Origin: Gammaproteobacteria bacterium
Lineage (GTDB): Bacteria > Pseudomonadota > Gammaproteobacteria > Xanthomonadales > SZUA-36
Direction of reading: 5' to 3'
DNA: 64,000 nucleotides
NCBI GenBank assembly: GCA_021772935.1
Contig: JAJFLA010000003.1
Span: 25,989-89,988 of the forward strand
Both the position numbers and the translations under genes were made by a program. Below are positions 29,780 through 55,200 of this stretch, in pieces. How positions within the stretch are numbered: the stretch's first letter is position 1; every line of letters starts with the position of its first letter. The notes below the pieces were generated by a model. The model was not told the origin of the DNA. It did no database searches and worked only from the letters and a program-made list of their open reading frames with translations.

Positions 29780-30981
29780 TGAGACAACGCACCGTACTGA
29801 GTCTGGAGCAGGCACTTTCGATGCCTTATGCCACGCTGCGTTTTGCCCAGCTTGGTTGGCGTGTCATTCGCATTGAGGCAACCCCGCAAGGTGGGCGCCT
29901 GCCGGGTGACCCGAATCGCTATATCGGCACACAAGTGGTAGATGATGACCGCAACAGCTATTTTGTTGCGCCGAATGTGGGAAAAGAAACTATCGCACTG
30001 GATTTAAAAGATCCACGAGGTCGTGAATTGCTGCTGCGTATCATCAAAGAACTGGATGTTGATATTTTCTGCTGCAATACCTTGCCAGGTCGTTATGAAA
30101 ACCTGGGAATTGATTACCAAACACTCAAAACGGCGAATCCGAAGATTATTTGGGCCGGTATTTCGGCCATGGGGCCCGCTTATCCCAATGTGCCGGGTTA
30201 TGACCCTGCACTGCAGGCCATGTCAGGCTTTATGGAGCTCACCGGACATGAAGACGGACAACCAACCTTGTCGGGTATCCCGCTGATAGATTTAAAAGCC
30301 GGTGATGAAGTCTATGCTGGCGTCTGCCTGGCCCTGGCAGAGCAGGCCGAAACCGGTGAGGGTTCAGAAATTAATGTCTCCATGTTACAGGCGGCTGCGT
30401 CCTGGTTGATCACGACCTTGCCATTGGTTGATTTTGGCTGTGATGATTCGGAAATCACCCGCTGTGGAAATGAACACCGGAAATTCATTCCCACCAATGC
30501 CTATCCGACAAAAAATGGTTTTATCTATGTTGCGATCGGTAATGATATCCAGTGGCAACGGTTTACCAGCATTGAAAAATTTAAACCGGTTGCCAATGAT
30601 GCTCGTGAGACCAACAAGGGTCGCCAGGCGGAACGGCAGGGTTGTTATCATGATATCAGTGCCATTTCAGCCCGATATTCAACTACTGAACTCGCTGCAG
30701 ATTTTACCGCAGCAACCATTCCACATGCGGTGATTAACGATATACGCCAGGTACGCGTACTTGAAGCATTGAATGACAAACTCACCAGCACGCAGACACC
30801 GGATGGCAAGCTGATCCATATGCAACCGATGGCGGTTGACCGGGATAGGGCGTGCACAGAGCTATCGTTTCCTGCCAAATATGGTCAACACACGCGGCAG
30901 ATTCTTGCTGAGGCAGGTCTGGGTGAGCGGGAAATAGGGCAACTTGCCGAATTGGGCGTGATTTCGGTCTTGTCGGCATAA
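29779..30981 (+). CDS. Class III (CaiB/Frc family) CoA-transferase
   Basis: A 400-residue family III CoA-transferase, expected to activate the pathway acid by moving CoA from a donor thioester. The catalytic aspartate is probably Asp171 in [11 protein letters not shown], in line with Asp169 of formyl-CoA transferase. RIEATPQGG and [16 protein letters not shown] are family blocks. The N-terminus begins directly at the first Rossmann segment and lacks the usual 10-20 residues with the MxGPxAG-like start; a TAATG junction with the molybdenum-subunit gene fixes the start. Location between a hydroxylase and an epimerase-like gene supports a CoA-dependent catabolic route. Donor and acceptor acids are unknown. 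Confidence 0.88.
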
Positions 30982-30997
30982 ATACGGGAGTAGGGCG

Positions 30998-31414
30998 ATG
31001 AAAACCAACAAATTGGACCACCTGTGTATAGCGGTCAAAAACCTGCAAGAAGCACGAAAAATTTGGGAGCCTATCCTCGGCAAAACAGAACCCGACGATG
31101 CTTATGTCGATGAGTCCGAGAAAATCCGGGTTGCACGTTACTGGCTTGACGGGGTCGGATTTGAGTTGATGGAATCCACATCGCCTGATGGGGATGTTGC
31201 GAAATTTATCCAAAAACGTGGGGAAGGCGTTATGCTAATCAGCTTCAACGTAGACAATACCCGCGAAGCCATGGTGGAACTAAAAGAAAAAGATTATCCC
31301 TTTATCGGCGACGCCCGCCAGTTCCGGGATTGTGAGTTCGCTTTTCTCCACCCAAAAAAAATGAACGGCGTGTTGCTGGAATTAATTGACGATAAAGATA
31401 AAATGGGCAGATAG
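30998..31414 (+). CDS. VOC-fold protein related to methylmalonyl-CoA epimerase
   Basis: A 138-residue protein of the vicinal-oxygen-chelate superfamily, closest in pattern to methylmalonyl-CoA epimerase, which equilibrates the 2-epimers of a malonyl-CoA derivative for a B12 mutase. LDHLCIAV (His8), AKFIQKRGEG and GVLLELIDD (Glu129) match the epimerase. However, the segment normally GIHHIAFEV reads GVMLISFNV: the metal-binding histidine pair is Met79-Leu80. Either the metal site is remodelled or the protein has another role. GGGAGTAGGGCG precedes the ATG. It closes the operon; the next gene lies 270 bases away behind a repeat remnant. Confidence 0.85.
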   Translation: MKTNKLDHLCIAVKNLQEARKIWEPILGKTEPDDAYVDESEKIRVARYWLDGVGFELMESTSPDGDVAKFIQKRGEGVMLISFNVDNTREAMVELKEKDYPFIGDARQFRDCEFAFLHPKKMNGVLLELIDDKDKMGR

Positions 31415-31684
31415 GGCGGCAAGTTGCAGTTGAAGAGTGTGGCTGGACTGGAATAGAGGAAAATTAACTGTGGGTTTTTTGGAACAGGGATTAAGTCCGT
31501 CCTGAAATTTGTTTTATATCAGTGAAGACGTCATCTGGGATGACTGTCTATCTGCGTTAGTTGATATTCAATAATTAAGGAACCTCTGATCTATTCATGA
31601 AATCGTATTTTGCGTTCAAAATGTTGCCGCCTCTGGAATAACTTCTTTTTACGCACCGTAATTTATTTTTTGAAAGGATAAAAC
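31415..31684. other. Gene-free 270-bp spacer
   Basis: No credible reading frame. Contains the half repeat at 31575-31631 and an AT-rich leader ending in GAAAGGATAAAAC, the ribosome-binding region of the Rieske gene. The spacing suggests that the Rieske gene has its own promoter; no clear -35/-10 pair was identified. Confidence 0.5.
31575..31631 (+). repeat. Half copy of a dispersed MITE-like repeat
   Basis: Starts TTAAGGAACCTCTGATC and continues through ATTCATGAA, TTGCGT and CAAAAT blocks that recur in the same order at 62303-62360. A shorter inverted copy lies at 39136-39159. Only one end of the element is present here. Confidence 0.65.
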
Positions 31685-32719
31685 ATGTTTTTACTCAATG
31701 CATGGTATGTCGCCTGTACGCCCGATGAGATCAAAGAGAAGCCACTTGGTCGCACTATCTGTGATCAGCGCATTTGTTTTTACCGAGGCGTTAAGGGTCA
31801 GGTGGCTGCGGTTGAAGACTTTTGCCCACACCGGGGTGCTCCCTTGTCGCTAGGCACAGTGAAAGAGGGCAAGCTGGTTTGTGGCTATCACGGGCTGCAA
31901 ATGGGCTGCGATGGCAAAACAATTGCCATGCCGGCGCAACGGGTAAAAGCATTCCCCGCTATTCGTAGCTACGCTGTAATGGAGCGCTATGGGTATATTT
32001 GGGTTTGGCCAGGTGATGCTGGCCAGGCTAATTTCAAAGACATCCCCAAACCAAGCTGGGCAGGTCGTGATGATTGGTCTTTCGGTGGTGGCATGTTTCA
32101 CTTCAAGTGCGACTACCGCCTATTGATCGATAATCTGATGGATCTGAGCCATGAAACCTATGTGCACAGCACCAGTATTGGTCAGCAGGAGATTGATGAA
32201 GCCGTGCCTGAAACGGTCGTGCAAGATGACATTGTCACCACTACACGTCATATGTTCAACATTGAAGCACCGCCATTTTGGAAAGATGCAATGCTTAGCA
32301 ACAAGCTGGACCCTGTAGCCAAAATCGATCGCTGGCAAATATGTCGTTTTGAAGCTCCAAGTAATGTGATGATTGATGTGGGCGTGGCACTTGAAGGCTG
32401 TGGCGCGTTCGATGCATCAGCAGACAAAAAAGTCTCCAGTATTGTGGTCGACTTCATCACACCTGAGACGGGTACTTCATGTTGGTATTTTTGGGGAATG
32501 GCTCGTCATTTCCAGGTGGATGATGTGGCTTTGACCCAATCAATCCGTGAAGGCCAACAATCCATTTTTGAAGAAGACCGCGAAGTGCTGGAACGTCAAC
32601 AACAAAACCTGCTGTTGCAACCAGAGCGTAAACTATTGAAGTTGAATATTGACTCAGGTGGCGTACACGCGCGGCGCATTATCGATCGTTTGTGTAAAAA
32701 GGAAACTACGCATGAATAA
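31685..32719 (+). CDS. Rieske non-heme iron aromatic oxygenase, VanA-like
   Basis: A 344-residue oxygenase resembling the VanA type of vanillate O-demethylase. Rieske [2Fe-2S] ligands are Cys47, His49, Cys66 and His69 (C-x-H ... C-x2-H). The mononuclear iron site is Asp153-x2-His156-x4-His161 plus a likely third ligand in EEDREV. It would use O2 and reducing equivalents to hydroxylate or O-/N-demethylate its substrate. No dedicated ferredoxin reductase (VanB type) is encoded in the window, so electrons must come from elsewhere. GAAAGGATAAAAC precedes the ATG. It may serve the upstream operon, but the 270-bp gap makes this uncertain. It converges with the kinase gene, leaving 17 bases between stops. 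Confidence 0.9.
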   Translation: MFLLNAWYVACTPDEIKEKPLGRTICDQRICFYRGVKGQVAAVEDFCPHRGAPLSLGTVKEGKLVCGYHGLQMGCDGKTIAMPAQRVKAFPAIRSYAVMERYGYIWVWPGDAGQANFKDIPKPSWAGRDDWSFGGGMFHFKCDYRLLIDNLMDLSHETYVHSTSIGQQEIDEAVPETVVQDDIVTTTRHMFNIEAPPFWKDAMLSNKLDPVAKIDRWQICRFEAPSNVMIDVGVALEGCGAFDASADKKVSSIVVDFITPETGTSCWYFWGMARHFQVDDVALTQSIREGQQSIFEEDREVLERQQQNLLLQPERKLLKLNIDSGGVHARRIIDRLCKKETTHE

Positions 32720-39352: not shown

Positions 39353-41149
39353 ATGCGTGGGTTCAAGTCTTCTCTATCCCTGGGTGAAGCAACACCCAAT
39401 ATTGGCAGCATGCTGCTGAATAACCGGGATCGATATCGCGACCTGAATGCGTTTGCCCAACGGCAGCAGGGCCCATACCGCTACTGGTCCTGGCGCCAGA
39501 TGGTTAGCGACATACTCAAGCTTGCAGCCTTCTTGTTACAACAAAAAGGCATGCCCCCAGAATTGACTGAAGATATGCCTGACAATCGGGTCGCCTTTAT
39601 CTCGGCCAATGGTTACCAGCGTATGGTTTCTGAAATGGCAGTGATGGGCACCGGTATGGTGGCAGTGCCGGTGTTTTCGGGTTATGCGGCGGAATTAATG
39701 TCGGACCTGATCAGTTTTGGTGATGTCGGCACACTGGTCACTGACAATCTTGAAAAGATCGCTACGCTACGGTCGGATTGTCTGGCAGTGCGGGTTCTTG
39801 CCATGACCGGGTCCAGGCACAGTGTTGACCCGAATTTGCTGGAAAAACTGTCTTCACTGGGTGTGAGTAGCGTGACCTTTATGCACGACCTGCTCGCGGT
39901 TGAAATGGATGCTGATAGCATTGATCTTGAAGACCGGATGCGTGCGGTCAAACCACAACGCCTGGCCATGATCATGTTTACTTCCGGCACTAGTAGCTTC
40001 CCAAAGGGCGTACAACTGACACATTCCAACCTGATGTCACAGCAAAAAGCGCTTGAGATTTTATGGAAACCCGAATCAGGCATGCGGTTTTTGTGTTACC
40101 TGCCCTGGCATCACAGTTTTGGTGGTTTGTTTGAGCGCTTGTTTGCGCTGCATTCGGGTGGTTGTCTGGCGATTGATGACTCATGTGGTAAGGACGTAGG
40201 CAGACTGCTGCAAAACTTCGCTGAAATAAAGCCCCATGTTTACTTCAGTGTGCCCAAGGTTTACCAGGAGATCATCACCAGAATTCTGGCAACACCGGAA
40301 TTCGGTGAAAGTTTTTTTCATCCAGAACTCAAGTTTGTATTTACTGCTGCGGCACCCTTGCCACTGAGTACGTCGGAAATTTTCCGGAACAAGGGCGTGC
40401 CAGTCATAGAAGGCTGGGGTCTTACCGAGACCTCACCTTGTTGCACCTTGACCGGGCTGAGCCTGCAACGAACTCCTGGCGTGGTTGGTTTCCCGATTCC
40501 GGGCGTCGAGATCATGCTTGGAAATGAAAATGAGATTCTTGTAAAAGGCCCAAATGTGATGCGTGCTTACTTCAGGCAAGATGAGGTCACCAACAATGTG
40601 TTTGAAGATGGCTGGTTCAAGACCGGCGATGTTGGCGAGCTCACTGATGAAGGCGTACGAATCATTTCGCGTCTGGACCGTATGTTCAAGCTCGATAATG
40701 GTGAGAAAGTCTTCCCTGCACGAATTGAGGACCGTGTTGCCGGTCGTTGCAAATTCATTAAGTACGCTTATGTTTTTGGTTCGGGTCAGAAAAATCCGTC
40801 ATTGCTGGCATTTCCCAACTACGAATTGATGACCGCAAGCGATGGTGGGGATCTTGATCAATCAGATTGTGTTTACCCAGGTTGTATGAATGAGCTGGCT
40901 GGCTGTCTGGGGGACTGCATCAAAGCTGAACAGGCAGCCGGGGCGGTCTTTGAACGCGTTGACGGTGCCTTGGTTGTCGACTCTGAACTGACCGTAGAGG
41001 CCAACCAACTAACACCTTCGTTTAAATTGATTCCACGTCAAATCGAACATGATTTCGAGCCTTACATAGAGGCTATACGCACAAAAACAACGGATAAATT
41101 GCCTGAAGGTGCAAGCATTATTGATATGGAACAAAAGGACTCAACTTGA
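39353..41149 (+). CDS. AMP-forming acyl-CoA synthetase, long-chain type
   Basis: A 598-residue adenylate-forming enzyme that makes an acyl-AMP and then an acyl-CoA. The ATP loop is MFTSGTSSFPKGV; the adenine/acyl motif is EGWGLTETSP; the hinge motif is GWFKTGDVGEL. The C-terminal catalytic lysine lies in LTPSFKLIPR, as in fatty-acyl-CoA synthetases. An unusual cysteine-rich stretch (four Cys within about 17 residues, SDCVYPGC to LGDC) interrupts the C-terminal domain and could bind metal. GGAGG stands 9 bases before the ATG. The two following genes form an ATP-driven CoA-ester reductase, so this enzyme probably supplies its thioester. Acyl specificity is unknown. Confidence 0.9.
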   Translation: MRGFKSSLSLGEATPNIGSMLLNNRDRYRDLNAFAQRQQGPYRYWSWRQMVSDILKLAAFLLQQKGMPPELTEDMPDNRVAFISANGYQRMVSEMAVMGTGMVAVPVFSGYAAELMSDLISFGDVGTLVTDNLEKIATLRSDCLAVRVLAMTGSRHSVDPNLLEKLSSLGVSSVTFMHDLLAVEMDADSIDLEDRMRAVKPQRLAMIMFTSGTSSFPKGVQLTHSNLMSQQKALEILWKPESGMRFLCYLPWHHSFGGLFERLFALHSGGCLAIDDSCGKDVGRLLQNFAEIKPHVYFSVPKVYQEIITRILATPEFGESFFHPELKFVFTAAAPLPLSTSEIFRNKGVPVIEGWGLTETSPCCTLTGLSLQRTPGVVGFPIPGVEIMLGNENEILVKGPNVMRAYFRQDEVTNNVFEDGWFKTGDVGELTDEGVRIISRLDRMFKLDNGEKVFPARIEDRVAGRCKFIKYAYVFGSGQKNPSLLAFPNYELMTASDGGDLDQSDCVYPGCMNELAGCLGDCIKAEQAAGAVFERVDGALVVDSELTVEANQLTPSFKLIPRQIEHDFEPYIEAIRTKTTDKLPEGASIIDMEQKDST

Positions 41150-41195
41150 TTGCGGTTGCGAAAACGGGTAAAGCTGTACACATGAGAGGCATCAC

Positions 41196-42380
41196 ATGGA
41201 TATGAAACGGGTCATGAAGGATTATTTCCTTGATCTGGACCAGGCATCGAAGGATCCTGAGCGTAAGGTGGCGTGGTGTACCTCGGTCGGCCCGGCAGAA
41301 ATTCTGCGGGCCATGGGTTTTGAAGTATTTTTCCCGGAAAATCACGGCGCGATGCTGGGGGCCACGCGGGTTTGTATGGATACGATACCCAAGGCTAATG
41401 CAATGGGTTATTCACCGGATATCTGCAGTTACCTGACCTCCGATGTCGGTGCCTACCTCAAAGGTATCACGCCACTGACAAAAGCCTATGGAATCGAGTC
41501 GGTTCCAAGGCCGGATATACTCGTTTACAACACCAACCAGTGTAAAGATGTCATGCACTGGTTCGAGTACTTTGCGCACGAGTTTGATGCGCCGGTATTT
41601 GGTATTCATCCGCCAACCCACCTTCCTGAAGTTGAAGAAAGTCATATAGCAGACGTCGTTAAGCAGTTCGAAGAACTGATCCGGGTACTTGAAAAGATGC
41701 AGGGTAGAGCCATGAGGCGTGAAGACCTGCAAAGGACCTGTGCGCTTTCCAAGCAGGCAACCGACCTGTGGGCCGAGGTGCTGGAAACAGCGATGGCGCG
41801 TCCCAGCCCGCTGACGTTTTTTGATAGCACGATTTACATGGGTCCAATCGTGGTTTTACGGGGCACTAAGGTCGCACGTGATTATTACCGTGTGCTACTG
41901 ACTGACCTGAAGATCAGGGCAGCAGCCAAAGTGGCGGCCGTACCCGGTGAAAGTAAACGTATCTACTGGGATGGTATGCCGGTTTGGGGTCGTTTACGCA
42001 GCATGTCCGAACTATTTAAGGCCAATCATGCCTGTGTCGTGGCGTCGACCTATTGCAACAGTTGGATTTTTACTGATTTTGACCCGGCTGACCCGTTACC
42101 AAGCATGGCCTATGCTTACCTGAAAATTTTCATCAATCGCAATGATCAATACAAGGAAGACTATATCCGCAAATTGGTGAATGAATATTCGATTGATGGT
42201 GTTATTTTTCATGATGCCAAGACCTGTCCAAATAACAGTAACAGCCAATACAACCTGCCTTCCCGTTTACGTAAGGGTGGTATTCCTGCAGTCATCATTA
42301 ATGGTGATTTATGTGATTTGCGCTGTTACTCTGATGAGCAGTCCAGCACAGTCATCGAAGCTTTTGTAGAGACCTTGTGA
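41196..42380 (+). CDS. Single-subunit BcrB/HgdB-family reductase (double-cubane-protein-like)
   Basis: A 394-residue protein of the 2-hydroxyacyl-CoA dehydratase/benzoyl-CoA reductase D-component family. Family cysteines are Cys28 (AWCTSVGPAEIL), Cys77 (DICSYL), Cys116 (NTNQCKD) and Cys344 (DAKTCPNN); Cys60, Cys287 and Cys373/377 are extra. The CSY and PEN blocks resemble BcrB/BzdO. Classical dehydratases and class I benzoyl-CoA reductases need two different D-type subunits; only one gene is here. That organisation fits the homodimeric double-cubane-cluster proteins, which reduce difficult substrates with ATP-driven electrons. The gene directly precedes its activase and follows an acyl-CoA synthetase, so a CoA ester is the likely substrate. 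Whether it holds [4Fe-4S] or [8Fe-9S] cannot be read. Confidence 0.88.
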   Translation: MDMKRVMKDYFLDLDQASKDPERKVAWCTSVGPAEILRAMGFEVFFPENHGAMLGATRVCMDTIPKANAMGYSPDICSYLTSDVGAYLKGITPLTKAYGIESVPRPDILVYNTNQCKDVMHWFEYFAHEFDAPVFGIHPPTHLPEVEESHIADVVKQFEELIRVLEKMQGRAMRREDLQRTCALSKQATDLWAEVLETAMARPSPLTFFDSTIYMGPIVVLRGTKVARDYYRVLLTDLKIRAAAKVAAVPGESKRIYWDGMPVWGRLRSMSELFKANHACVVASTYCNSWIFTDFDPADPLPSMAYAYLKIFINRNDQYKEDYIRKLVNEYSIDGVIFHDAKTCPNNSNSQYNLPSRLRKGGIPAVIINGDLCDLRCYSDEQSSTVIEAFVETL

Positions 42381-42381
42381 T

Positions 42382-43254
42382 ATGAGCGCAGGCACAAACC
42401 ATGAACATCTTTACTGGGGTGTGGACTGTGGAAGCACGCAGATCAAGGTTATTGCATGTGATGGTGACGGTAAGGTAGTACACAAGCGTATTGGGCGAAC
42501 CCTGTTCCCTTTGCTGGAGCACGTCCGTAATACAATTTCAGCTGGCGGTTCGGGGCCGTCACCACTGACAGAAGATTTGTTGGGCGTTAAGGAAAACCAC
42601 ACTCTCGCTGCCACCGGTTATGGCAGAAACCACATCGAGTTTGCCAGCGGTAAACTGACTGAAATCAGCGCACATTTTCTCGGCGCACAACAGCTTTTGC
42701 AACTTGATGGCCCTTATACGATTGTTGATATTGGGGGTCAGGATTCCAAAGTGATCGAAGTACACGATGGACGTGTGGGACAGTTTGTCATCAACCGTAA
42801 ATGCGCGGCCGGTACCGGTGCTTTTATCGAAGAGTTGGCACATCGTCTCGAAGTGCCACTCAGCGATCTGACGCGGCTGGCCCGTTTACATGACAAGGAC
42901 ATGACGCTCAACAGTTATTGCACGGTTTTTTCGGGTCAAGAAGTGATCAAGATTCTGATGAATGGAGAACGTCTGGAAAATCTGATCCACGCCCTTTACG
43001 CGTCGGTCGTGCAGAGAATTCTCGAAATGACCAGCATCACTACTCAAAACGTAGTTTTTTCAGGTGGCGTGATGAACTTCAACCCCATACTCATCGATTT
43101 ATTTGATGAAAAACTTCCGGATCACACGACCTTTCTTGTTGAAGATGCGCAATATTGCGGTGCTTATGGTGCCGCATTGTTTGCGCGTGGTCTGGCTGAG
43201 AAACAGGCAGAAAACTTCTCTCAGAGCGAGGTCAATGTGAGACTGGCGACGTAA
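42382..43254 (+). CDS. ATP-dependent activase of the BcrA/BcrD/HgdC family
   Basis: A 290-residue actin-fold ATPase. As a homodimer bridged by one [4Fe-4S] cluster, such activases use ATP hydrolysis to push single low-potential electrons into their partner. Nucleotide motifs are GVDCGSTQIK at the N-terminus and VDIGGQDSK near 115-123. The cluster cysteines are Cys141 (NRKCAAGTG) and Cys180 (SYCTVF), 39 residues apart, as in HgdC. Only one activase subunit is encoded, as in HgdC and double-cubane-protein systems, and unlike the BcrA/BcrD pair. It starts one base after the stop of the partner gene. Confidence 0.93.
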   Translation: MSAGTNHEHLYWGVDCGSTQIKVIACDGDGKVVHKRIGRTLFPLLEHVRNTISAGGSGPSPLTEDLLGVKENHTLAATGYGRNHIEFASGKLTEISAHFLGAQQLLQLDGPYTIVDIGGQDSKVIEVHDGRVGQFVINRKCAAGTGAFIEELAHRLEVPLSDLTRLARLHDKDMTLNSYCTVFSGQEVIKILMNGERLENLIHALYASVVQRILEMTSITTQNVVFSGGVMNFNPILIDLFDEKLPDHTTFLVEDAQYCGAYGAALFARGLAEKQAENFSQSEVNVRLAT

Positions 43255-43340: not shown

Positions 43341-44324
43341 TTAGTCACCTGGCATACGTCTGCCGAGCAGCTTGGTACAGGCGTAGATGGCGTTGATATG
43401 TGGTGTTGGCGTGTGCGTGAGCCTACCCAATTCGATCATCGCACCTACCAGCGCTTCGATCTCCAGTTCCCGACCCGCCTCGATATCCTGCAGCATGGAG
43501 GTTTTATGTTGGCCCACGCTTTCTGCTCCAGTGATTCGTTTTTCTATGCTGTGACGAAACTGAACACCCAGTTTGTTAGCTATGGTCTCTGCCTCCGCCA
43601 TCATATGTGTTGCCAATTCACGGCTGGCAGAAAACTGACAAATATCGGTCATGGTGGCATGTGTCAGAGCACTGATTGGATTGAAAGTGAGGTTGCCCAA
43701 GGTCTTTAGCCAGCTTTCGGCACGGATGTCATCCAGCACGTAAGACTTAAACCCCGCCTTGCACAGTGTCCGGGAAATTTCTTTTACGCGGTCGCTGTGG
43801 GAACCATCCAGTTCACCCACGGAAAAGCGGTTACCGTTGACATGCCTAATAATGCCTGGTGAAACCACTTCTGCTGCAGGGTATGCGATGCAGCCGATTA
43901 TTCGTTCGGGTTCTATATTGGCTTCGATCTCACCCGTTGGGTCTGCCGCATGTATGCGTTTCCCTTCGTATTCGCCGCCATGCTTGAAAAAGTACCACCA
44001 GGGAAGGCCGTTCTGAATTGTGATAACCGTTGTGTCAGGCGCAAAAAGTGTGCGCATTTTTACCGCGATTGAAGCGATTTGATAGGTCTTTACGGCAATA
44101 ATTACGATGTCCTGCTTGCCCACCTTATCCATGTCCGTGCAGGTTCTGAAATCACGCACGGTAAATTTTTCACCGCCATGCATCAGCAGGTTCAGGCCAT
44201 TTTTGTCAATTGCTGTCAAATGCGGCCCTTCACGCTCGACAAAGGTAATCTCCTCGCCGGCCAGGGCGAGTTTGGCGCCCATTAGTCCACCAATTGCACC
44301 AGCACCGATAACACATATTTTCAT
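43341..44324 (-). CDS. Ketopantoate reductase (ApbA/PanE) family oxidoreductase
   Basis: A 327-residue NAD(P)H-dependent 2-dehydropantoate 2-reductase family enzyme. The Rossmann motif GAGAIGGLMGAKLA opens the protein; IIAVKTYQ, ITIQNGL and the C-terminal helical domain motif with Lys-Asn type residues (SWLKTLGNLTFNPISAL) follow. SMLQDIEAGRELEIEALVG is the usual dimer/substrate block. The open frame extends to 44399, but the GxGxxG motif right after MKICVI fixes the start at 44324. Many paralogues reduce other 2-oxoacids, so the pantothenate role is not certain. It is the last gene of a minus-strand group, about 100 bases from the TPR-Fic gene. Confidence 0.87.
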   Translation of the reverse strand: MKICVIGAGAIGGLMGAKLALAGEEITFVEREGPHLTAIDKNGLNLLMHGGEKFTVRDFRTCTDMDKVGKQDIVIIAVKTYQIASIAVKMRTLFAPDTTVITIQNGLPWWYFFKHGGEYEGKRIHAADPTGEIEANIEPERIIGCIAYPAAEVVSPGIIRHVNGNRFSVGELDGSHSDRVKEISRTLCKAGFKSYVLDDIRAESWLKTLGNLTFNPISALTHATMTDICQFSASRELATHMMAEAETIANKLGVQFRHSIEKRITGAESVGQHKTSMLQDIEAGRELEIEALVGAMIELGRLTHTPTPHINAIYACTKLLGRRMPGD

Positions 44325-44425
44325 ACTTATACTCTGTTGTAAAAGCTCTGGCTGCTGCGGACTGGAACGTTGCGGCAGTTTTTTGCCGGAAGCAATCAAG
44401 CTGCGGTTTGTAAATTAACCGAGGT

Positions 44426-46723: not shown

Positions 46724-47833
46724 TCAACGTATTTTGTCTACTTCCAGAATGACACGTTCCACATTTCCGGAAAACTCTATTCTCTTGTCCATGGCCGGTG
46801 TCAGGTAGACGGTACCGGACTCATCCACTACGGCCACATGGCTCAGCTTGAGTGCAGCAGCTACTTGTGGCCATTTTTCCAGGCCTGCCACGACAAGTGC
46901 CGTCGCGGCGGTATCTGCCAGTAAGCCTTCATCGCTGATGACGGTGACCGACGCGATGTCCTCTGCTGGCCAGCCAGTAACTGGATCAATGATATGTGGA
47001 TAACGCTCCAGTTGGTCCTGGCGAAAACGCTCGTAGTTGCCAGAAGTGAATATCGCCTCATCGCCACGAACCTGCACAGAACCGATGATGCCGCCACCGG
47101 GTTTCCTGACAGCCACACGCCAGGGTCGATCGCCATGACTTCCTATGGCGCGAAGATCACCGCCCGCATTCACAATGGCGTTAGTGATACCCATTTTCCG
47201 TAGATGCGCGATGGTGAGATCCACGGCGTAACCTTTGGCGATGCCGCCAAAGTCCAGTTGCACTGCGGAGTTGTTGGTGCTCAGTTCAAGCCCATCAATA
47301 TGGATGTCAAGACTCGAAGGCTTGAGCTCCAGAATAGCATTGATCTGAGCTTGCGAAGGAGCAGGTCCTACAACCGGGTAATCGGACGTATGGAAACCCC
47401 ACACTCTGATCAGTGCACCGATGGCAGGGTTAAAACGACCACCTGTGGCATTTTCAATCAGCTGTGAACGACGAATCATTTCAATGATATCTGCGTTGCC
47501 TGTTGACGGTTGCCCATTTGCGAAGGCTTTATTGATGTCTGTTAAACGGCCGGGCTCCCAGGCATGCCAGTCGCGGTGCATGCCCTGAAACATCTGCTGT
47601 AGTTCTGAAAATACGTCACTGGCCTCTTCACGCGAGGCGCCCCAGAGTTTAATTTCGACGATGGTGCCAAATACAAATAATTCAGCGCTTTGTTCCCCAT
47701 CACGCTGGCAGGCAGCCAATAGCAACAGGCAGAGCAGCATTACTGGGGTCAGAGTCAAAAACCCATGTCGGCTCCGACATGGGTTTTTGACTCTGACCCC
47801 AGCTGAAATATCCCGGTCAGGTTTTATTCGCAT
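46724..47833 (-). CDS. apbE: FAD:protein FMN transferase ApbE (flavinyltransferase for Rnf), lipoprotein
   Basis: ApbE attaches FMN covalently to threonine of RnfG and RnfD. Motifs: FGTIVEIKLWG, GRFNPAIGALIRVWGFH, DFGGIAKGYAVD, NAGGDLRAIG, and HIIDPVTGWP with DTAATALVV. A signal peptide with lipobox LLAAC (MLLCLLLLAAC) predicts a periplasmic lipoprotein, where the RnfG/D targets lie. The start is ambiguous: the ATG at 47740 begins directly at the hydrophobic stretch, but a REP hairpin lies 2 bases before it and leaves no ribosome-binding site. The ATG at 47833 is in frame through the hairpin and adds 31 residues. It ends the Rnf operon. Confidence 0.9.
   Translation of the reverse strand: MRIKPDRDISAGVRVKNPCRSRHGFLTLTPVMLLCLLLLAACQRDGEQSAELFVFGTIVEIKLWGASREEASDVFSELQQMFQGMHRDWHAWEPGRLTDINKAFANGQPSTGNADIIEMIRRSQLIENATGGRFNPAIGALIRVWGFHTSDYPVVGPAPSQAQINAILELKPSSLDIHIDGLELSTNNSAVQLDFGGIAKGYAVDLTIAHLRKMGITNAIVNAGGDLRAIGSHGDRPWRVAVRKPGGGIIGSVQVRGDEAIFTSGNYERFRQDQLERYPHIIDPVTGWPAEDIASVTVISDEGLLADTAATALVVAGLEKWPQVAAALKLSHVAVVDESGTVYLTPAMDKRIEFSGNVERVILEVDKIR
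47743..47802. repeat. REP-like hairpin, 29-bp perfect arms, 2-base loop
   Basis: Arms 47743-47771 and 47774-47802 around loop CT. The outer part (CTGGGGTCAGAGTCAAAAAC) matches the central hairpin at 18979-19034. It sits between the small Cys-rich gene and the hydrophobic signal sequence of apbE, and is open in the apbE frame (about 20 codons). No REP-associated transposase is in the window. Confidence 0.9.
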
Positions 47834-47972
47834 TCTCGCACTCGGACTTTTCTGAACAAGCACCCGAACAAGAACCGGAGCAACCGCCTGAATCTTGCCG
47901 TCCGCGGTGGAAAAGACCAAAGCCCACAAACAGCACAATTAGAAGGATCAGGGGTGCGATATAGTCCATCAT
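47817..47972 (-). CDS. Small single-span Cys-rich membrane protein, NqrM-like
   Basis: A 51-residue protein, too short for ordinary gene calling. Residues 1-21 are one hydrophobic span (MMDYIAPLILLIVLFVGFGL). The rest has four cysteines, Cys31, Cys35, Cys39 and Cys45, in GGCSGSCSGACSEKSEC. The plan matches NqrM, the small protein needed to mature Na+-NQR by supplying iron, and FeoB-associated Cys-rich proteins. It starts 2 bases after the rnfA stop and its end overlaps the longer apbE start, so it belongs to the Rnf operon. I infer a role in maturing the Fe site shared by RnfA/RnfE; no homology search was possible. Confidence 0.72.
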   Translation of the reverse strand: MMDYIAPLILLIVLFVGFGLFHRGRQDSGGCSGSCSGACSEKSECENANKT

Positions 47973-47974
47973 AT

Positions 47975-48550
47975 TTACAAAAGCCCGGCAAAGCCCATAA
48001 ACGCCATCGACAGCGTGCCTGCAATAATCAGCACCAGCCCAGTACCCTTGGCAATCTCCGGCACATCTGAAAACTCAACAGATTCACGGATGGAAGCCAT
48101 CAAGACCAGCGCCAGTGTCAGGCCAAGTCCAGCACCAACGGCAAAGGTCAGCCCCTGAAAAAAACCATAACCACGGTTGGTCTGGAAAATTGCCAGACCG
48201 AAAATGGCACAGTTAGTCGTCATCAGTGGTAGAAAAATCCCCAGTTGTCGGAATAGGGTAGGTGATAGTTTCTTCACGGCCATTTCGACGATTTGTACCA
48301 ACGAGGCCACCACAATAATAAAGGAGATGATACGAAGGTAAGGAACCGACTCCAAAATAAAGGTATTGAGTACCCACGCACTCAGTGAAGTCAGTACCAG
48401 TACAAAAATATTGGCCAAACCCATTCGCAGTGCTGTTTCCACTCGTGCGGAAACTCCCATAAAGGGGCATAAACCGAGGAACATGGCGAGCGTGAAGTTA
48501 TTCACTACCATAGCTGAGAAAAAAATCGAAAACAGCGTTTGGTCATTCAT
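47975..48550 (-). CDS. rnfA: Rnf electron-transport complex subunit RnfA
   Basis: A 191-residue inner-membrane protein with six predicted helices, paralogous to RnfE and NqrE. With RnfE it forms the membrane core that holds an Fe centre, between conserved cysteines in FLGLCPFMGVS and TTNCAIFG. Length is typical. It overlaps rnfE by four bases and is followed after 2 bases by the small Cys-rich gene. Confidence 0.96.
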   Translation of the reverse strand: MNDQTLFSIFFSAMVVNNFTLAMFLGLCPFMGVSARVETALRMGLANIFVLVLTSLSAWVLNTFILESVPYLRIISFIIVVASLVQIVEMAVKKLSPTLFRQLGIFLPLMTTNCAIFGLAIFQTNRGYGFFQGLTFAVGAGLGLTLALVLMASIRESVEFSDVPEIAKGTGLVLIIAGTLSMAFMGFAGLL

Positions 48551-49182
48551 GGTGACTGCTCCGCTGTCAGCGTTGTCTTGGTTTTCTTACGCTGCTCCAC
48601 AAATCCCATTGCAAGCAAAATGAAACCGAGAGTCAGGAAGCCACCGGCTGGTAAAACCATGATCACCCAGGGTTCAAAGTTTGCACCAAATAAGGAATAC
48701 TCAAGGAAGCTACCGGTTCCCAGTATCTCCCGGAAACCGCCCATCATAACAAGTGCTATGGTGAAACCGATACCGGTTCCGATGGCGTCGAGCAGGGAGC
48801 GGTAGACATTGTTTTTGGCGGAAAAAGCTTCCTGACGACCGAGAATCATGCAGTTGACCACGATCAAAGCGATAAAAGCGCCAAGCTCTTTGTGTTGAAC
48901 CGGTGCATACGCCTGCAACAACATATCCGCCAGTGTTACAAAGGTCGCAATCACCAGAATATATGCCGAAATACGAACTTCGTTGGGAATAAACCGTTTA
49001 CAACTTGATACCAGCACGCTTGAACAGCAAATCACAAAGAAGGTTGCCGCACTCATGGCCAGTGCATTTTTCACACTGTTAGTCACAGCCAGGGCTGGGC
49101 ACAGACCGAGCATCTGGATCAGAACAGGATTTTCGTTCCAGATACCGCGAATAAAATCTTGAGACGGTGTTGTCTTTCTCAT
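48547..49182 (-). CDS. rnfE: Rnf electron-transport complex subunit RnfE
   Basis: A 211-residue membrane protein, NqrD-like. LGLCPALAVTNS and VNCMILGRQEAF carry the two conserved cysteines that mirror those of RnfA in opposite topology. Six helices are expected. The cytoplasmic C-terminus is short and basic (VEQRKKTKTT). ATGA overlaps join it to rnfG upstream and rnfA downstream. Confidence 0.96.
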   Translation of the reverse strand: MRKTTPSQDFIRGIWNENPVLIQMLGLCPALAVTNSVKNALAMSAATFFVICCSSVLVSSCKRFIPNEVRISAYILVIATFVTLADMLLQAYAPVQHKELGAFIALIVVNCMILGRQEAFSAKNNVYRSLLDAIGTGIGFTIALVMMGGFREILGTGSFLEYSLFGANFEPWVIMVLPAGGFLTLGFILLAMGFVEQRKKTKTTLTAEQSP

Positions 49183-49913
49183 TGTTTCGTCTCCTCGAAT
49201 TTAGAAACAACGGGTGCTTTTGGAATACCCCGATCAATCACCGGTCGCCATTCTTCCAGTGCATGATTAATGATGTCGATGACAACCTTGGAGGAAATGG
49301 TCGCACCTGTGATGGTATCGATCTCATTCGGCTTGCCCTTGCCGGCACCAATTTTTACGCCAATTAACGGGGTTTCAGGGCCTGCAAAAAACTGTTTAAC
49401 AAAAGCCATGTCTTTAAATATTTTGTCACCCAGGCCTGGGGTTTCTTTACTATCCAGTACTTTCATACCCGAAAGTTTCCCAGTTGTCGGGTTAAACCCG
49501 AAAATGATCTGAACAACGTCCTGAAAGCCTGATTCTCCACGTGAAATTGCGATACCACTAACTTCATCTAAAATATCATAACCTACATATATCCGTCTGT
49601 AATCACTATCTTTATTGCCTTCTGGTATATTTAAAGAAAGCCTGTCATTGACCAAGTAATAGGTGCTATAACGTTCAACTCCTGGTAGTACCTCGTAGAC
49701 TGCAATTTTAAGCTGCTCGGCCTTGTATTTATCAATAATAGGTTTTGTGTGTTGATTCACCAACACGATCAATAACCCGGCCAGCGCACCGGCGACTGCC
49801 AGTGTTGCCACCAGGCGGAATGTGGAAACCGTCTCTTTGAGCGGGGTTTCCGGCGATTCCGGCAGGCTTGGGTCATGGGTGCCAGTGTCCTCTTTCATGA
49901 TTTCTTCGTTCAT
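49179..49913 (-). CDS. rnfG: Rnf electron-transport complex subunit RnfG
   Basis: A 244-residue subunit with one N-terminal membrane span (about residues 32-52) and a periplasmic FMN-binding domain. FMN is attached by ApbE to a threonine in the motif DTITGATISS (about residues 195-204). AGGAGG lies 7 bases before the ATG at 49913; the longer upstream frame lies inside rnfD. The N-terminal 30 residues are acidic and proline-rich, longer than in E. coli RsxG. Confidence 0.95.
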   Translation of the reverse strand: MNEEIMKEDTGTHDPSLPESPETPLKETVSTFRLVATLAVAGALAGLLIVLVNQHTKPIIDKYKAEQLKIAVYEVLPGVERYSTYYLVNDRLSLNIPEGNKDSDYRRIYVGYDILDEVSGIAISRGESGFQDVVQIIFGFNPTTGKLSGMKVLDSKETPGLGDKIFKDMAFVKQFFAGPETPLIGVKIGAGKGKPNEIDTITGATISSKVVIDIINHALEEWRPVIDRGIPKAPVVSKFEETKQ

Positions 49914-50926
49914 GATCCAGCCTCCTTCTTTTTCTTTCTGGAGGTGCCGAACAGACGGGGTTGTGTAGCACGGTTTATAAAAGGCACCAATGCATTCATC
50001 AACAGGATGGAATACATCACACCTTCCGGCAGACCACCCCAAACCCGAATGATTACAACCAGGAAACCAATGCCAAAACCGAAAAGCCAACAACCCTTGT
50101 TGGTTATCGGTGAAGTTACCATGTCCGTCGCCATGTAGAACGCACCGAGCATCATACCGCCTGAAAAAAGCATGAACAGTGGCGGAAACTGGGAAATACC
50201 AAGGGCAAAAAACAGACCGGAAATAACAAAGGTTGAGACAAAAATGCTCAATGGGATATGCCAGTTTAAATGTCCACGCCAGGCCAGATAGATACCACCG
50301 AGCAGAATTAACAGAGCTGAGGTTTCACCCAAAGAACCACCAGTAGTTCCAAGAAACAAATCAATCACGGGTGTCACAACAGGATCATCGCCGAACTTCA
50401 GGTTACCCAGCGGTGTTGCTGAGCTTGTGGCATCGACAACCGGGCTCATAAAAGGCAGGGCGAAATTATCACCCTGTAGCGCCCACCAATGCTGTGTTTT
50501 TGCTGGCCAGGTTGTAATCGCGACCGGAAAGGCTGCTTGCAAAAAGGCACGTCCTACCAGGGCAGGGTTAAAAACATTCTGACCCAGACCACCAAATATG
50601 ATCTTACCGAATGCCATACCAAAACCACCACCTAAAAAAGCCATCCAGAGTGGAAAACCGGGTGGCAGCGTCAAGCCCAGTAAAAGCCCGGTGATCATCG
50701 CAGAGCCATCCGCCAATGAGCCCGGTGTGGACCCAAACAAACGCTCTGTGAGCAAACAACCGGCAATACTTGCAAGCAAGACAAGAATTGCACTTGGGCC
50801 AAAGAAATAAATCGAAGCAGCAACGACAGGTATAAGGCTTATCACCACTGACCACATAATTTTTATGGTGGATTCAGCTGATCTGACATGTGGTGAAGCA
50901 GTAATTTTGACGCTGGAATCAGTCAT
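49910..50926 (-). CDS. rnfD: Rnf electron-transport complex subunit RnfD
   Basis: A 338-residue polytopic membrane protein, NqrB-like, carrying a second covalent FMN. The flavinylated threonine is expected in DATSSATPL (about residues 170-178). The FNPALVGRAFL and ATDMVTSPIT blocks are standard. The start at 50926 gives an ATGA overlap with rnfC; the frame extending to 51028 lies inside rnfC. The C-terminus is strongly basic (KKKKE). Confidence 0.95.
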   Translation of the reverse strand: MTDSSVKITASPHVRSAESTIKIMWSVVISLIPVVAASIYFFGPSAILVLLASIAGCLLTERLFGSTPGSLADGSAMITGLLLGLTLPPGFPLWMAFLGGGFGMAFGKIIFGGLGQNVFNPALVGRAFLQAAFPVAITTWPAKTQHWWALQGDNFALPFMSPVVDATSSATPLGNLKFGDDPVVTPVIDLFLGTTGGSLGETSALLILLGGIYLAWRGHLNWHIPLSIFVSTFVISGLFFALGISQFPPLFMLFSGGMMLGAFYMATDMVTSPITNKGCWLFGFGIGFLVVIIRVWGGLPEGVMYSILLMNALVPFINRATQPRLFGTSRKKKKEAGS

Positions 50927-52248
50927 GATGAAGGCAGTCTTCTCAGTTGTGTTTTTGACATGGCGAACAATTGGGATAAAGGAATATTGGACGGACAAAC
51001 AAACGAACAAGACCCACACAGCATACAATCGTTCAGATTTGCATCGGCCTTGAGTTCCTCGTAGCGTTCAGCCTTCGCCAAAGCGCCCATCAATTGTGGG
51101 TTCAGAAAGATAGGGCACGCCTCCAAGCATTTACCGCACTTGATACAGGGCAGTATATCCTGTCGTTTGCACTCATCCTTTGAAAGGACCAGTATGCCAC
51201 CTGTTGCTTTCAAGATTGGTACGTCAAGATTGGCCTGACCCAAGCCCATCATCGGGCCACCGAAAACTATCTCGGCGGCATCTTCGGTAAAACCGCCACA
51301 ATGTTCGATAACGTCACGAAGTTTTGTCCCAAAGGGTATTTTCCAGTTACCAGGTTTTCGAATGCCGCGACCCGTCACTGTGATGATGCGTTCAATCAAG
51401 GGGTGTCCGCTCTCAAATACGGCAGCAACATTGGCTGCGGTTGCCACATTCTGCACCATAGCGCCAATCGCACTTGGCAGGGCACCGGATGGAACTTCCA
51501 GACCCATGACAGCTTTTATCAGCATTTTCTCAGCACCCTGAGGATACTTTACTCTTAAAGGCTGAACCGTGACATCGAGATCGTCAGGTTTGGTTTTGCG
51601 CATCATTTCGATGGCATCAGGTTTGTTCGCTTCAATGCCAATCACTGCGCGGGTAATACCCAACGCTTTAAGAGCAATGCGAATGCCTTCGTAAACCTGG
51701 TCTGGTAGCTCCAGCATCGTGCGGTGATCCGAGGTGAGATAGGGCTCGCACTCACATCCATTAATCAATAACAAATCAACGGGTTGATCTTTAGGCGGAC
51801 ACAGCTTGACGTGGGATGGAAATGCAGCGCCGCCAAGACCCACAATACCTGCCTTGCCGATTTCCGTGGAAAGATCTTCATCTTTTACGTCTTGCCAGCG
51901 TGGCACAATACGTGTCCTTCGCATCTGCGACGAGCTCGGGTCCACGCTGATACGGATCGATGGAACCATGGTGCCGTTGGGGTGTGGCCAGAGTTCGATC
52001 GACTTCACAATGCCGGCCGCAGTCGCATGAACGGCTGAAGAAATAAAACCGCTTGCTTCCGCTATAACGTCTCCCCGTTCAACATGGTCGCCGGGTTTAA
52101 CCAGGGATTTCGCCGGCGTACCAATGTGCTGTGACAAAGGCAGAATGACTTCCTTGGGGAACGGGAACCGTTTCGAGGCTATGCTCGAAGTGATGTCCTT
52201 GTTCTCCGACGGGTGAACCCCGTGTTTGAAACTCAGTAAACCTGTCAT
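50923..52248 (-). CDS. rnfC: Rnf electron-transport complex subunit RnfC
   Basis: A 441-residue peripheral subunit, NqrF-like in role: it binds NADH and FMN. GIVGLGGAAFPSHVK (about residues 135-149) and NGCECEPYLTSDH are the NADH/FMN domain motifs. Two [4Fe-4S] motifs, CIKCGKCLEACP and CMLCGSCSFVCP, lie in the last 80 residues. It ends 22 residues after the second motif, without the long Ala/Lys-rich tail of enterobacterial RsxC. It follows nifJ by 7 bases. Confidence 0.96.
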   Translation of the reverse strand: MTGLLSFKHGVHPSENKDITSSIASKRFPFPKEVILPLSQHIGTPAKSLVKPGDHVERGDVIAEASGFISSAVHATAAGIVKSIELWPHPNGTMVPSIRISVDPSSSQMRRTRIVPRWQDVKDEDLSTEIGKAGIVGLGGAAFPSHVKLCPPKDQPVDLLLINGCECEPYLTSDHRTMLELPDQVYEGIRIALKALGITRAVIGIEANKPDAIEMMRKTKPDDLDVTVQPLRVKYPQGAEKMLIKAVMGLEVPSGALPSAIGAMVQNVATAANVAAVFESGHPLIERIITVTGRGIRKPGNWKIPFGTKLRDVIEHCGGFTEDAAEIVFGGPMMGLGQANLDVPILKATGGILVLSKDECKRQDILPCIKCGKCLEACPIFLNPQLMGALAKAERYEELKADANLNDCMLCGSCSFVCPSNIPLSQLFAMSKTQLRRLPSS

Positions 52249-52255
52249 GTTGGTC

Positions 52256-55200
52256 TCAATTAAACGGTTCAGCGCGTTGGATCAGCTTATCCAAGCCTTT
52301 CTCTTTTGGATTCAGCGGGTCACCCGGATGAATACATTCTGCCGGACAAGCTTCAGCTCCCATCACGATCTGCTTGAAGGTGCCGGACCTGGCATCGCCA
52401 ATGTAAGCCTGCTGGTCATCATTGTAGACAAATAGCTTGGGATTGAGCTTCAGGCAATCATCACAGGACGTGCAGCGAAGTGTATCGATGTAGGGTTCGT
52501 TACCCATATCATCGTCGTCGTCGTCCGCCATAGCTGCTTCCACTGACGGCGTTGCGGAAGCTACGGCAACGGGTGCTGGTGCACTCGTCGAAGCTGCAGG
52601 TGCAGTTGAAACATCAAAGCCAGTTGGGGCTTCGAATGCCGGCCCTTCCCAGCTCTCTGCTTTTTCAAGTAATTGTGCAACGGTATCGTTGGCGCTTCCT
52701 TTTAACAGCCCTTCTGCGAGTCTTCTTGCAATCAACAATGGGTACTGTGTCGTCAGTTTAGTGATTTTTGCCTCATACTCGGCAGTTAGCGCTGCTATCC
52801 TGGATTCGAGCTCATCGGTCATTCCTTCAGTGACTGCATCACGCATATTGTCTGAAACATCAAGTCCCGCCATCTCTTTCAGCTGGGACCAATGCTGCAA
52901 ACGCTCTTCAGCCAGTTGTACGATCTCATCTGAAACCGACATCCTGCTCAAACGTCTGCTGGCATCAACCGTGTAAATGTAGGCTGTTTCATCTTCACGC
53001 TCATCCTCATCCATCTCCAGGTAGTCATGGAAAGGAATCAATTCATCCTCATTATTCATCTTCTTGAAGTGCCCACGGAAACGTGCCTCGCCGAGAGCCC
53101 AGTCAGCAGTGGTGACGGGCAAGACCATCTTCTGCTCTTCACCCTGTTCGTCGACATGTAACAATTCGTAGCTGGTCCACGTGTCCAGGGGAGAGGGGTT
53201 GCCTTCCAGATCAATGCATTCAGAGAAGGTCGTGCCGTCGTCCGGGTTAAAAACAATATTGGGTACAGCACGACTTTCCAGTGCAAGCCTGGCAGCATCG
53301 GGCGCACCAAAGTCCGCAATACCCCACTCAGGAGGGCACGGTGTATTCAAAATAAACAGCGCCGGGCGTCTTGCCTGCAAACCTTTCAAGACATTTTGAA
53401 TCAGATGTGACGGTGTTGCCTGTGAAGACTGCATCACGAAAACACCACGATGGGCGATTGCGATCAGGGCAAGTTCTTTGCGAACCTCTTCCTTGCCATG
53501 CTGATCCATACCATATTCGGCCATATCAGAGACCTGCGCCGTGAAACCGGAGGTGCAAGCCTGACCACCGGTATTGGAGTAAACCTGTGTATCTACAACC
53601 ACCACCCGGATTGGTTTGTTCGAAGCCATCACACGGGACAAGTTCTGGAAACCAATATCCATCATGGCGCCGTCACCTCCGACTGCGAACAAAGGCGGGC
53701 ACAGGGTGAATTCATCGTCGTCGAACTGCTGCCATTCAAAATCCGAGAAGAACGTTTCATCGGTAGCCGCATCGTAGGATTCAGACAGAAGTTTCTCAGC
53801 TCGTCGTACCGTGATAAAACCGTCCGCCATTTTGCGCATATGGCCTTCAAAAATCCCCACCGCTACAGAGGGGGCATCCTGAAAGAGATGGTTTACCCAG
53901 GGGAAAGGGTAGGGGTTGTAAGGGTAGGATGAGCCCCAGACCGAACTGCAACCTGTCGAGTTGGTAAAGCCAAGATTTGCACGGCCACGGCCACTTGGGC
54001 CTTCTTCATAGCGCCACTTGAGGTCTTTCAACTCCTCAATAGATTTACGAATCAGCAGCACGCGTTCTTTTTTGTCTCCGGCAAGAGCAACTGAAAGGTC
54101 ATCCGAATCGGTTGAAACATCTGCAAGGTCTGTTTCTGACACCAGCATTGTGTGGGCCTTTTCATCAAGTTTCTTAATCAGACTGCCCAGGTTTTTCACC
54201 TGCTCTTCAACACGCGGGGCCATGAACGCGTTGACGGTGGAGAGAAGCAGATGAATGGTGGTTTTCTCACCGCAACCCATACAGGCACCATCACCACCGG
54301 TCATGGACATGTAATTGCTCTGCTTCAGTAACAGCGATGACATGACACCAATGCCATCGTCGAGGCTGGATATCTTGATGTATTGATCGTCGGTTTCCGG
54401 CAGGTTGCTCCAAAGCTTCCAGTTGAATTCAAGCGTTTCCTGCAGGTCATCAGTCTGGCGCACACTCTGCAGGGCGCCATCTGCACAAACGGCTACGCAA
54501 ATATCACAACCTTTACATGTTTCCGGATTGATGGTGATCGAAAGCAAACCACCTGAACCTTTCTTTTTGCTCTCCGGCAAATCAAAGAAGGGAGCTGTTT
54601 TGGCCAGCGGAAAGTCTGATACTGCCGCATAAACCAGGTTGTATTGGGCATCAATTTCAGCGCGTCGCTCAACATCCCAATTAGATTTTCCGGCGACGGT
54701 TTCATAAGCCTGTGCCAAAACGTTTGCGTAGGTCTTAAATGTGCCACTTGAGATGATCTTGCGTGACTCTTTGCCAAGATTTCTTATCAATTGAGAGAAA
54801 CGCGTCATCGGTTTTTGTGGGTCAGATACTGTCGTCACAGCAGCTTCCAGTACCTCTTCAACCGTGCTGACTACACCCGGAATGGCGGAGTCAGGGCACT
54901 GGGTCCAGCACTTGGCACAACCTGTACATTTTTCTGCAATAAATTCAGGTACATTAAAGCGAACCGCAGACATATCACGCATACTCGATGTCGCTGCGGG
55001 AATAGCGGCGATGGCCGTGAACGGATCAGCAATTATGTCCTGTCCGGTCTTGTACTGAACACAAACCTGGTTCCAGAAGTCTGCCTGATTACCAAGTCCG
55101 GTGGCTGCTTCGATACCCGCCATCGCGTGTGGGATCAAGGGCAATAACTCTTCATGGCCTTCATCCAGGAAATCCTCAAGATCAAGCGCTAATACTTCGT

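Follow-up and report, generated by a model that had tools for sequence, protein, structure and literature searches.

The window analysed here, a stretch of 64,000 nucleotides from contig JAJFLA010000003.1 (C13) of a gammaproteobacterial genome, carries at positions 39353 to 43254 three consecutive open reading frames (ORFs) on one strand, which encode an acyl-CoA synthetase, a single D-type protein (W_D, a name also used below for its family) and a single activase. The synthetase and D genes are separated by 46 bases and the D and activase genes by 1 base.

39353-41149, plus strand: AMP-forming acyl-CoA synthetase, 598 aa, predicted in activity and substrate to be an (R)-aryllactate-CoA ligase
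41196-42380, plus strand: D-type protein W_D, 394 aa, predicted homodimeric (R)-aryllactyl-CoA dehydratase of a lone alpha type
42382-43254, plus strand: HgdC-type ATP-dependent activase, 290 aa, with Cys141 and Cys180 as predicted cluster ligands

The three products were assigned with Pfam and NCBIfam. The synthetase scored 184.5 bits against Pfam AMP-binding, and its top NCBIfam model, PRK12582, gave 166.8 bits, below the cut-off of 777. W_D scored 227.9 bits against Pfam HGD-D (PF06050; cut-off 28.4). The activase gave 117.8 bits with Pfam BcrAD_BadFG and 172.7 bits with NCBIfam TIGR00241 (CoA_E_activ), above the cut-off of 125.4, and is therefore of the HgdC type; its nearest solved chain was HgdC (1hux, E 1.5e-34), with which Cys141 and Cys180 align. 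No second D-type gene adjoins the trio in the window. An earlier note, made from the sequence alone, had read the same three genes at this place and had positioned Cys28, Cys77, Cys116 and Cys344 of the D protein and Cys141 and Cys180 of the activase correctly, although its list missed Cys287, which is invariant in the family.

The combination of one D-type subunit, one activase and a CoA ligase, which the earlier note had also pointed out, is confirmed and is a repeated feature of the family. When genome contigs were scanned with five orthologues, 438 relatives were confirmed, whatever their distance, and the 80 best loci (56-88% identity) were retained. Of these, 21 (64-88% identity) make up a window-type group and 59 (56-60%) a second group. 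These 80 loci span Proteobacteria, Deltaproteobacteria, Chloroflexi, Thermoplasmata and Lokiarchaeota. Exactly one D-type ORF was detected by alpha and beta hidden Markov models (HMMs) in 77 of the 80 locus stretches, and the three exceptions carry bcrC and/or bcrB; these counts are not independent, as the D proteins of L058 and L059 are identical, certain genomes contribute a pair of loci and several of the stretches are short. Neither the MAFFT alignment nor the HMMs include seven D-type rows that were distant or on long branches (from L124, L132, L134 and L135). At the level of whole genomes, W_D was found in 43 of the 192 genomes of the Desulfonema magnum class. Comparison of the genome rows of the carrier list and the PF06050 list revealed that it is the sole PF06050 match (E 1e-10 or better) in 14 of these 43 (G482, G510, G517, G519, G532, G549, G556, G571, G574, G576, G596, G610, G623 and G645). 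The activase lies within 1 kb of W_D in ten of the 14 and about 2.7 kb off in G645, and no activase match was found within 3 kb of W_D in G517, G532 and G549. The complete genome of D. magnum encodes just one further PF06050 protein, a double-cubane-cluster protein (DCCP; 470.3 bits, cut-off 350). W_D thus does not seem to depend on a second D-type subunit, and component D, judged from gene content, would not be an alpha-beta heterodimer here.

To place W_D among the known D-type subunits, a tree of 57 rows was built, including 18 hand-picked from 81 W_D sequences. DCCP, BzdN, HadC, MbdN and BcrC fell on one side (beta/DCCP; support 100/99) and HadB, BcrB, MbdO, BzdO-like proteins and W_D on the other (alpha; 100/99). 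The W_D rows formed a single clade (100/100) apart from the BcrB/MbdO clade, and grouped at 92/89 with HadB, BzdO-like proteins and other alphas, with HadB on a long branch and the branching order left unresolved. The top NCBIfam model for W_D was HadB (196.6 bits, cut-off 750), followed by BcrB (140.3 bits, cut-off 486.55); BzdO gave 81.9 bits (cut-off 448.6) and the DCCP model NF040772 67.9 bits (cut-off 350), such that no NCBIfam D-type model reached its cut-off and W_D is not a HadB equivalog. HadB was also the nearest solved sequence. An AlphaFold2 model of W_D (pLDDT 90.2, 44 sequences in the alignment) matched HadB best (Z 47.4, root mean square deviation 1.9 over 384 residues), followed by BzdO (Z 45.2), a second HadB entry (44.8), MbdO (41.9), DCCP (33.0) and HadC (31.9). 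The modelled fold divides alpha subunits from the beta/DCCP kind and, weakly, HadB from BzdO. W_D combines an HGD-D domain with a predicted alpha-subunit fold, which it has in common with BzdO and MbdO as well. Membership of the BcrB family is ruled out by score and tree; the phylogeny against BcrB that the earlier note had called for did not place W_D in the BcrB clade of benzoyl-CoA reductase (BCR).

The residues of W_D were then compared. C28, C77, C116, C287 and C344 are invariant in all 81 W_D sequences. As the scan patterns included C116 and C287, a pattern-free set was also checked (30 loci returned of 43 matches), in which C28 was present in 29 of 30 and the other four in 30 of 30. W27, S30 and E48 are, like C77, C116 and C344, invariant in both sets, which overlap. 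Conservation does not extend to C60, C373 and C377. C77, C116 and C344 align with the [4Fe-4S] ligands of BzdO and are predicted ligands in W_D, and Ser30 and Glu48 stand at the columns of the BzdO active-site residues Ser44 and Glu65, as these are given in PMC11971306. W_D hence has the three cluster cysteines and the active-site Ser/Glu of an alpha subunit. A W-x-T-S/PEN motif is common to W_D and HadB and is replaced in BcrB and MbdO. Ser37 and Glu55 of HadB have an active-site role. His131 of BzdO was considered as a BCR marker and dropped, being absent also from MbdO and from the BcrB of this genome.

Two of the invariant cysteines, C28 and C287, are additional to the three of BzdO. For BzdN, the same paper lists Cys36, 73, 100, 263, 293 and 327 as double-cubane ligands (PMC11971306). 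Cys73, 100, 263 and 327 are matched in W_D, with C287 corresponding to Cys263 in both a profile comparison and MAFFT. C28 corresponds to Cys36 in the profile comparison and is one column off in MAFFT, and neither method gave a W_D counterpart of Cys293. With at most five of the six ligand positions present, a full double cubane in W_D is not supported by the sequence; an enlarged or unusual cluster is possible.

Neighbouring genes were clustered by BLAST linkage at 30% identity, by which labels of single genes can be wrong, and the gene-order listing omits two of the 21 window-type loci, in which the D gene had been joined to an ORF overlapping it. In the window-type group, the activase is present in 21 of 21 loci, hcrA-like and hcrC-like genes in 13 each, a dehydrogenase resembling ketopantoate reductase (KPR) in 12 and the synthetase in 11, counted in the stretches examined, some of which are incomplete. 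Members of this group often adjoin hcr-like, korAB, had/oah/dch or bcr genes. The alphaproteobacterial loci L033-L036 and L038 share the order synthetase-KPR-FadB-like-(thiolase)-SDR-hcrCAB-D-activase, followed in L034 and L035 by korAB and oah-bcrC-bcrB; L041 is without hcr. In L030, from the genus of the window organism, ACT, KPR, synthetase, D and activase genes are consecutive, and L030, L031 and L106 each have a synthetase homologue from the same cluster immediately 5' of their D gene. In the second group, the activase is found in 46 of 59 loci, KPR in 35, an ADP-forming ligase in 33 and an AMP-forming ligase in 28. L052 has the order IorA-IorB-PaaK-KPR-activase-D-ligase-ligase-thiolase, and ACT-KPR-activase-D-ligase occurs in L075, L083, L095, L098, L102 and L107; L091 shows this order plus a single additional ORF. 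IorA of L052 scored 758.9 bits, over the cut-off of 650.9; IorB (206.2 vs 238) and PaaK (544.8 vs 646.3) were best models below their cut-offs. The ACT proteins of L025, the window genome and Desulfococcus multivorans match Pfam ACT_8. Within six genes of W_D, IorA (7/59), ACT (7/59) and PaaK (6/59) are found in a minority of second-group loci. Strong matches to oah and had occur close to W_D in L069, L078, L084 and L103, the L069 pair above the cut-offs. These neighbours, present in part of the loci and across phyla, fit a metabolism of aromatic 2-oxo and 2-hydroxy acids.

In D. multivorans (G484), W_D lies at 2,791,057-2,792,316; the genes there read IorA-IorB-ACT-KPR-activase-D-ligase-ligase, after which come DctP/DctM transporter, kinase and response-regulator genes. 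DctM, DctP, one kinase, the regulator and ACT were confirmed by Pfam, and the order fits the published one, which places W_D within the published phenylacetate/phenylpyruvate region. According to PMC5109826, clusters there were formed specifically on phenylacetate and phenylpyruvate, the organism grows on phenyllactate, and strain DSM 2059 has no bcrABCD. FadB-like genes at 2,770,112 and 2,776,549 were taken from gene order to be those of the cinnamate/3-phenylpropanoate and phenylpyruvate clusters, respectively. Their hydratase/dehydrogenase products share 678 of 680 residues (99.7%), and the two thiolases match in 291 of 396. A phenyllactyl-CoA dehydratase would call for just such a beta-oxidation set for cinnamoyl-CoA as stands here next to W_D. 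At the DNA level, the two FadB-like genes (2770112-2772154 and 2776549-2778591; L170) are 99.3% identical over 2,207 bases, which may reflect either a recent duplication or gene conversion.

On contig C56, the genome of the window organism (3.96 Mb, 98.02% complete) carries a gene set for class I benzoyl-CoA reductase (BcrB 851.6, BcrC 707.1, BcrA 729.8 and BcrD 467.6 bits), as well as dch (422.5 bits), oah (648.9 bits) and had (559.1 bits), all over the NCBIfam cut-offs. Molybdenum-hydroxylase genes lie near this set, the beta subunit being nearest to 4-hydroxybenzoyl-CoA reductase (270.9 bits, below the cut-off of 404.55). An ACT-KPR pair 72% and 86% identical to the cassette counterparts is located on contig C7, and its dehydrogenase is the best match in this genome to that of the L025 cassette (86%). 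The KPR-like gene beside the trio in the window (43341-44399) was rejected as the cassette dehydrogenase: its matches to the L025 enzyme are weak and partial (26% and 28%), and its score of 420.5 bits (cut-off 223) for the 2-dehydropantoate 2-reductase subfamily speaks against such a role. A PDB search with the cassette dehydrogenase did not tell ketopantoate reductase and D-2-hydroxyacid dehydrogenase apart.

We propose that W_D is a lone alpha-type (R)-aryllactyl-CoA dehydratase, most likely a homodimer, on a route to benzoyl-CoA, and give this a probability of about 0.6; the homodimer, cluster type, substrate and reaction steps are predicted from gene content, phylogeny, modelled fold and neighbours. 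An arylpyruvate would be reduced to the (R)-aryllactate by the KPR-like dehydrogenase (in the window genome, that of contig C7), and the synthetase would make the CoA ester. The activase, spending ATP and drawing on a low-potential donor, would pass one electron into the cluster of the D protein, where, by a ketyl-radical mechanism, the CoA-ester radical would lose hydroxide and a proton and return the electron. This scheme is modelled on the HAD mechanism in PMC11574389. The product would be cinnamoyl-CoA (or 4-coumaroyl-CoA), from which hydratase, dehydrogenase and thiolase would form benzoyl-CoA (or 4-hydroxybenzoyl-CoA) for the benzoyl-CoA pathway, encoded here on contig C56. In this way phenylalanine- or tyrosine-type compounds would most likely reach benzoyl-CoA in anaerobes, by a route of which a step is still missing in a well-studied sulfate reducer.

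With the (R)-2-hydroxyisocaproyl-CoA dehydratase HadBC/HadI (PDB 3o3m) and further 2-hydroxyacyl-CoA dehydratases, among them FldBC and HgdAB, W_D shares the alpha-subunit fold, the three cluster cysteines, the W-x-T-S/PEN motif and one HgdC-type activase. It differs from them in having no beta subunit beside it or, in the 14 genomes above, anywhere, in its two extra invariant cysteines, in the CoA ligase genes alongside and in a score far under the HadB cut-off. In the titles and abstract openings of the open-licence literature searched, a scope that excludes subscription papers, no one-subunit dehydratase is described, and the family is apparently uncharacterised, so that the activity of its members is a prediction. 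The closest description is of BzS1_13720, called a 'singular gene' in PMC13416013, 30% identical to FldB, from the benzene-degrading sulfate reducer strain BzS1; it is listed there among hints of a phenyllactyl-CoA dehydratase, and its protein was not detected. The likeness to W_D, a lone FldB-like gene, is one of description, and BzS1_13720 is at most a possible member of the family.

A more far-reaching version is tentative, and we consider it rather doubtful: an anaerobic phenylacetate route that has not been described so far would depend, at its key step, on a lone-alpha dehydratase in which an enlarged iron-sulfur cluster, held by Cys28 and Cys287, takes the place of the beta subunit. Phenylacetyl-CoA, formed by PaaK, would be reductively carboxylated to phenylpyruvate by IorAB, followed by phenyllactate, its activation, dehydration to cinnamoyl-CoA and cleavage to benzoyl-CoA and acetyl-CoA; IorAB running in the carboxylating direction would be the boldest part of this proposal. 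If true, the route would replace the Pad route in sulfate reducers without padB and padEFGHI.

Several observations weigh against the assignment as an aryllactyl-CoA dehydratase. Radical-family dehydratases are described as alpha-beta heterodimers in a recent review (PMC11574389); since they store the electron on the beta cluster, a lone alpha subunit needs another solution, although an alpha-only family would also make this rule testable. Most of the genomes are metagenome-assembled, and an absent partner may reflect missing sequence in single cases. The activase is missing from the stretch examined in 13 of the 59 second-group loci, several of these stretches being short. The window genome has its dehydrogenase gene on a different contig from the trio, and its best matches to the hydratase/dehydrogenase and the thiolase of the cluster type are not close, reaching no more than 29% and 39% identity, so beta-oxidation in this organism would use other enzymes; the surroundings of the distant hydratase/dehydrogenase on contig C28 yielded nothing. 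The tyrosine arm is weaker because the hcr-like subunits of L035, for which 4-hydroxybenzoyl-CoA reductase was the best model, are below its cut-offs (828 vs 994.55 and 198.6 vs 404.55). Finally, the authors of PMC5109826 read the D. multivorans cluster in the opposite direction, from phenyllactate via phenylpyruvate to phenylacetyl-CoA.

The earlier note had named W_D BcrB-like and left open whether its CoA ester is reduced or dehydrated. A one-subunit enzyme like benzoyl-CoA reductase, reducing or dehydroxylating an aromatic CoA ester such as 3-hydroxybenzoyl-CoA, would suit the hcr-like and bcr genes often found beside window-type members, the second place of BcrB among the profiles and the closeness of the BzdO and HadB fold matches, and the two extra cysteines could hold a cluster storing more electrons. 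W_D belongs to the same superfamily and alpha fold as the class I enzymes (BcrCBAD, BzdNOPQ, MbdNOPQ), but the W_D operon has no BcrC/BzdN partner and one activase instead of two, and W_D lies outside the BcrB/MbdO clade. Such an enzyme would leave the dehydrogenase, ACT, IorAB and PaaK neighbours unexplained, lacks support from the motif shared with HadB, and fits poorly with W_D in D. multivorans, which has no bcrABCD. We regard it as unlikely and favour a dehydratase over a reductase because HadB came first by profile, sequence and fold (the last with BzdO close behind) and because of the neighbours.

It is less probable still that W_D has its partner in a D-type subunit from another locus, which in the window organism could be BcrC. 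The search for a second D subunit that the earlier note had suggested did find BcrC and BcrB on contig C56, and all five W_D carriers in a sample of 101 genomes have a second, BcrB-like match (partial in G005), with one further genome having BcrB-like matches only. Many carriers, however, have neither, so BcrC/BcrB cannot be the general partner, and pairing with BcrC as a rule is ruled out by the genomes in which W_D is the sole D-type gene; D. magnum offers just one further candidate, the DCCP, a kind of protein described as homodimeric in PMC11971306. In a sample of 369 genomes of the window's class, BcrC was found in ten and W_D in one, the window genome being in both, so that BCR carriers are mostly without W_D. 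Least probable is a homodimeric double-cubane protein reducing small molecules, the kinship that the earlier note had seen in the layout. DCCP/DCCPR (PDB 6eno, 7yyl) do share the lone D-type gene with one activase, and Cys287 aligns with a double-cubane ligand by two methods and Cys28 by one of two. Against this stand the low DCCP score, the position of W_D on the other side of the tree, the lower fold match (Z 33.0 vs 47.4 for HadB), the missing counterpart of ligand Cys293 and the adjoining CoA ligases, which point to a CoA ester as substrate; W_D was rejected as a member of the DCCP family on its score, its place in the tree and its number of ligands.

At L131, genome G102 has a further W_D paralogue of greater divergence (481.9 bits) in addition to its first. 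L126 and L127 hold alpha-beta D-type pairs whose alpha subunits score higher with W_D than with BcrB and are under every NCBIfam cut-off.

Further genes were noted in the window. ORFs at 46724-57274, 3' of the trio, were read by eye as ApbE, Rnf subunits and pyruvate:ferredoxin oxidoreductase; their homologues adjoin the trio in L030, and they are a possible low-potential electron supply. The O2-using Rieske enzyme mentioned in the earlier note is indeed encoded, at 31685-32719. It is of the VanA type and ends a consecutive series (29779-32719) with a CoA-transferase III and a methylmalonyl-CoA-epimerase-like VOC protein, possibly an aerobic degradation set. Contig C13 (89,988 bases) forms a perfect inverted palindrome wherever positions were compared, with 38,012 of 38,012 matching inside the window (window 1-38012) and 19,991 of 19,991 outside it; most likely this is an assembly artefact. 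The further copy of the trio that C13 carries follows from the palindrome and was not counted as a separate gene set.

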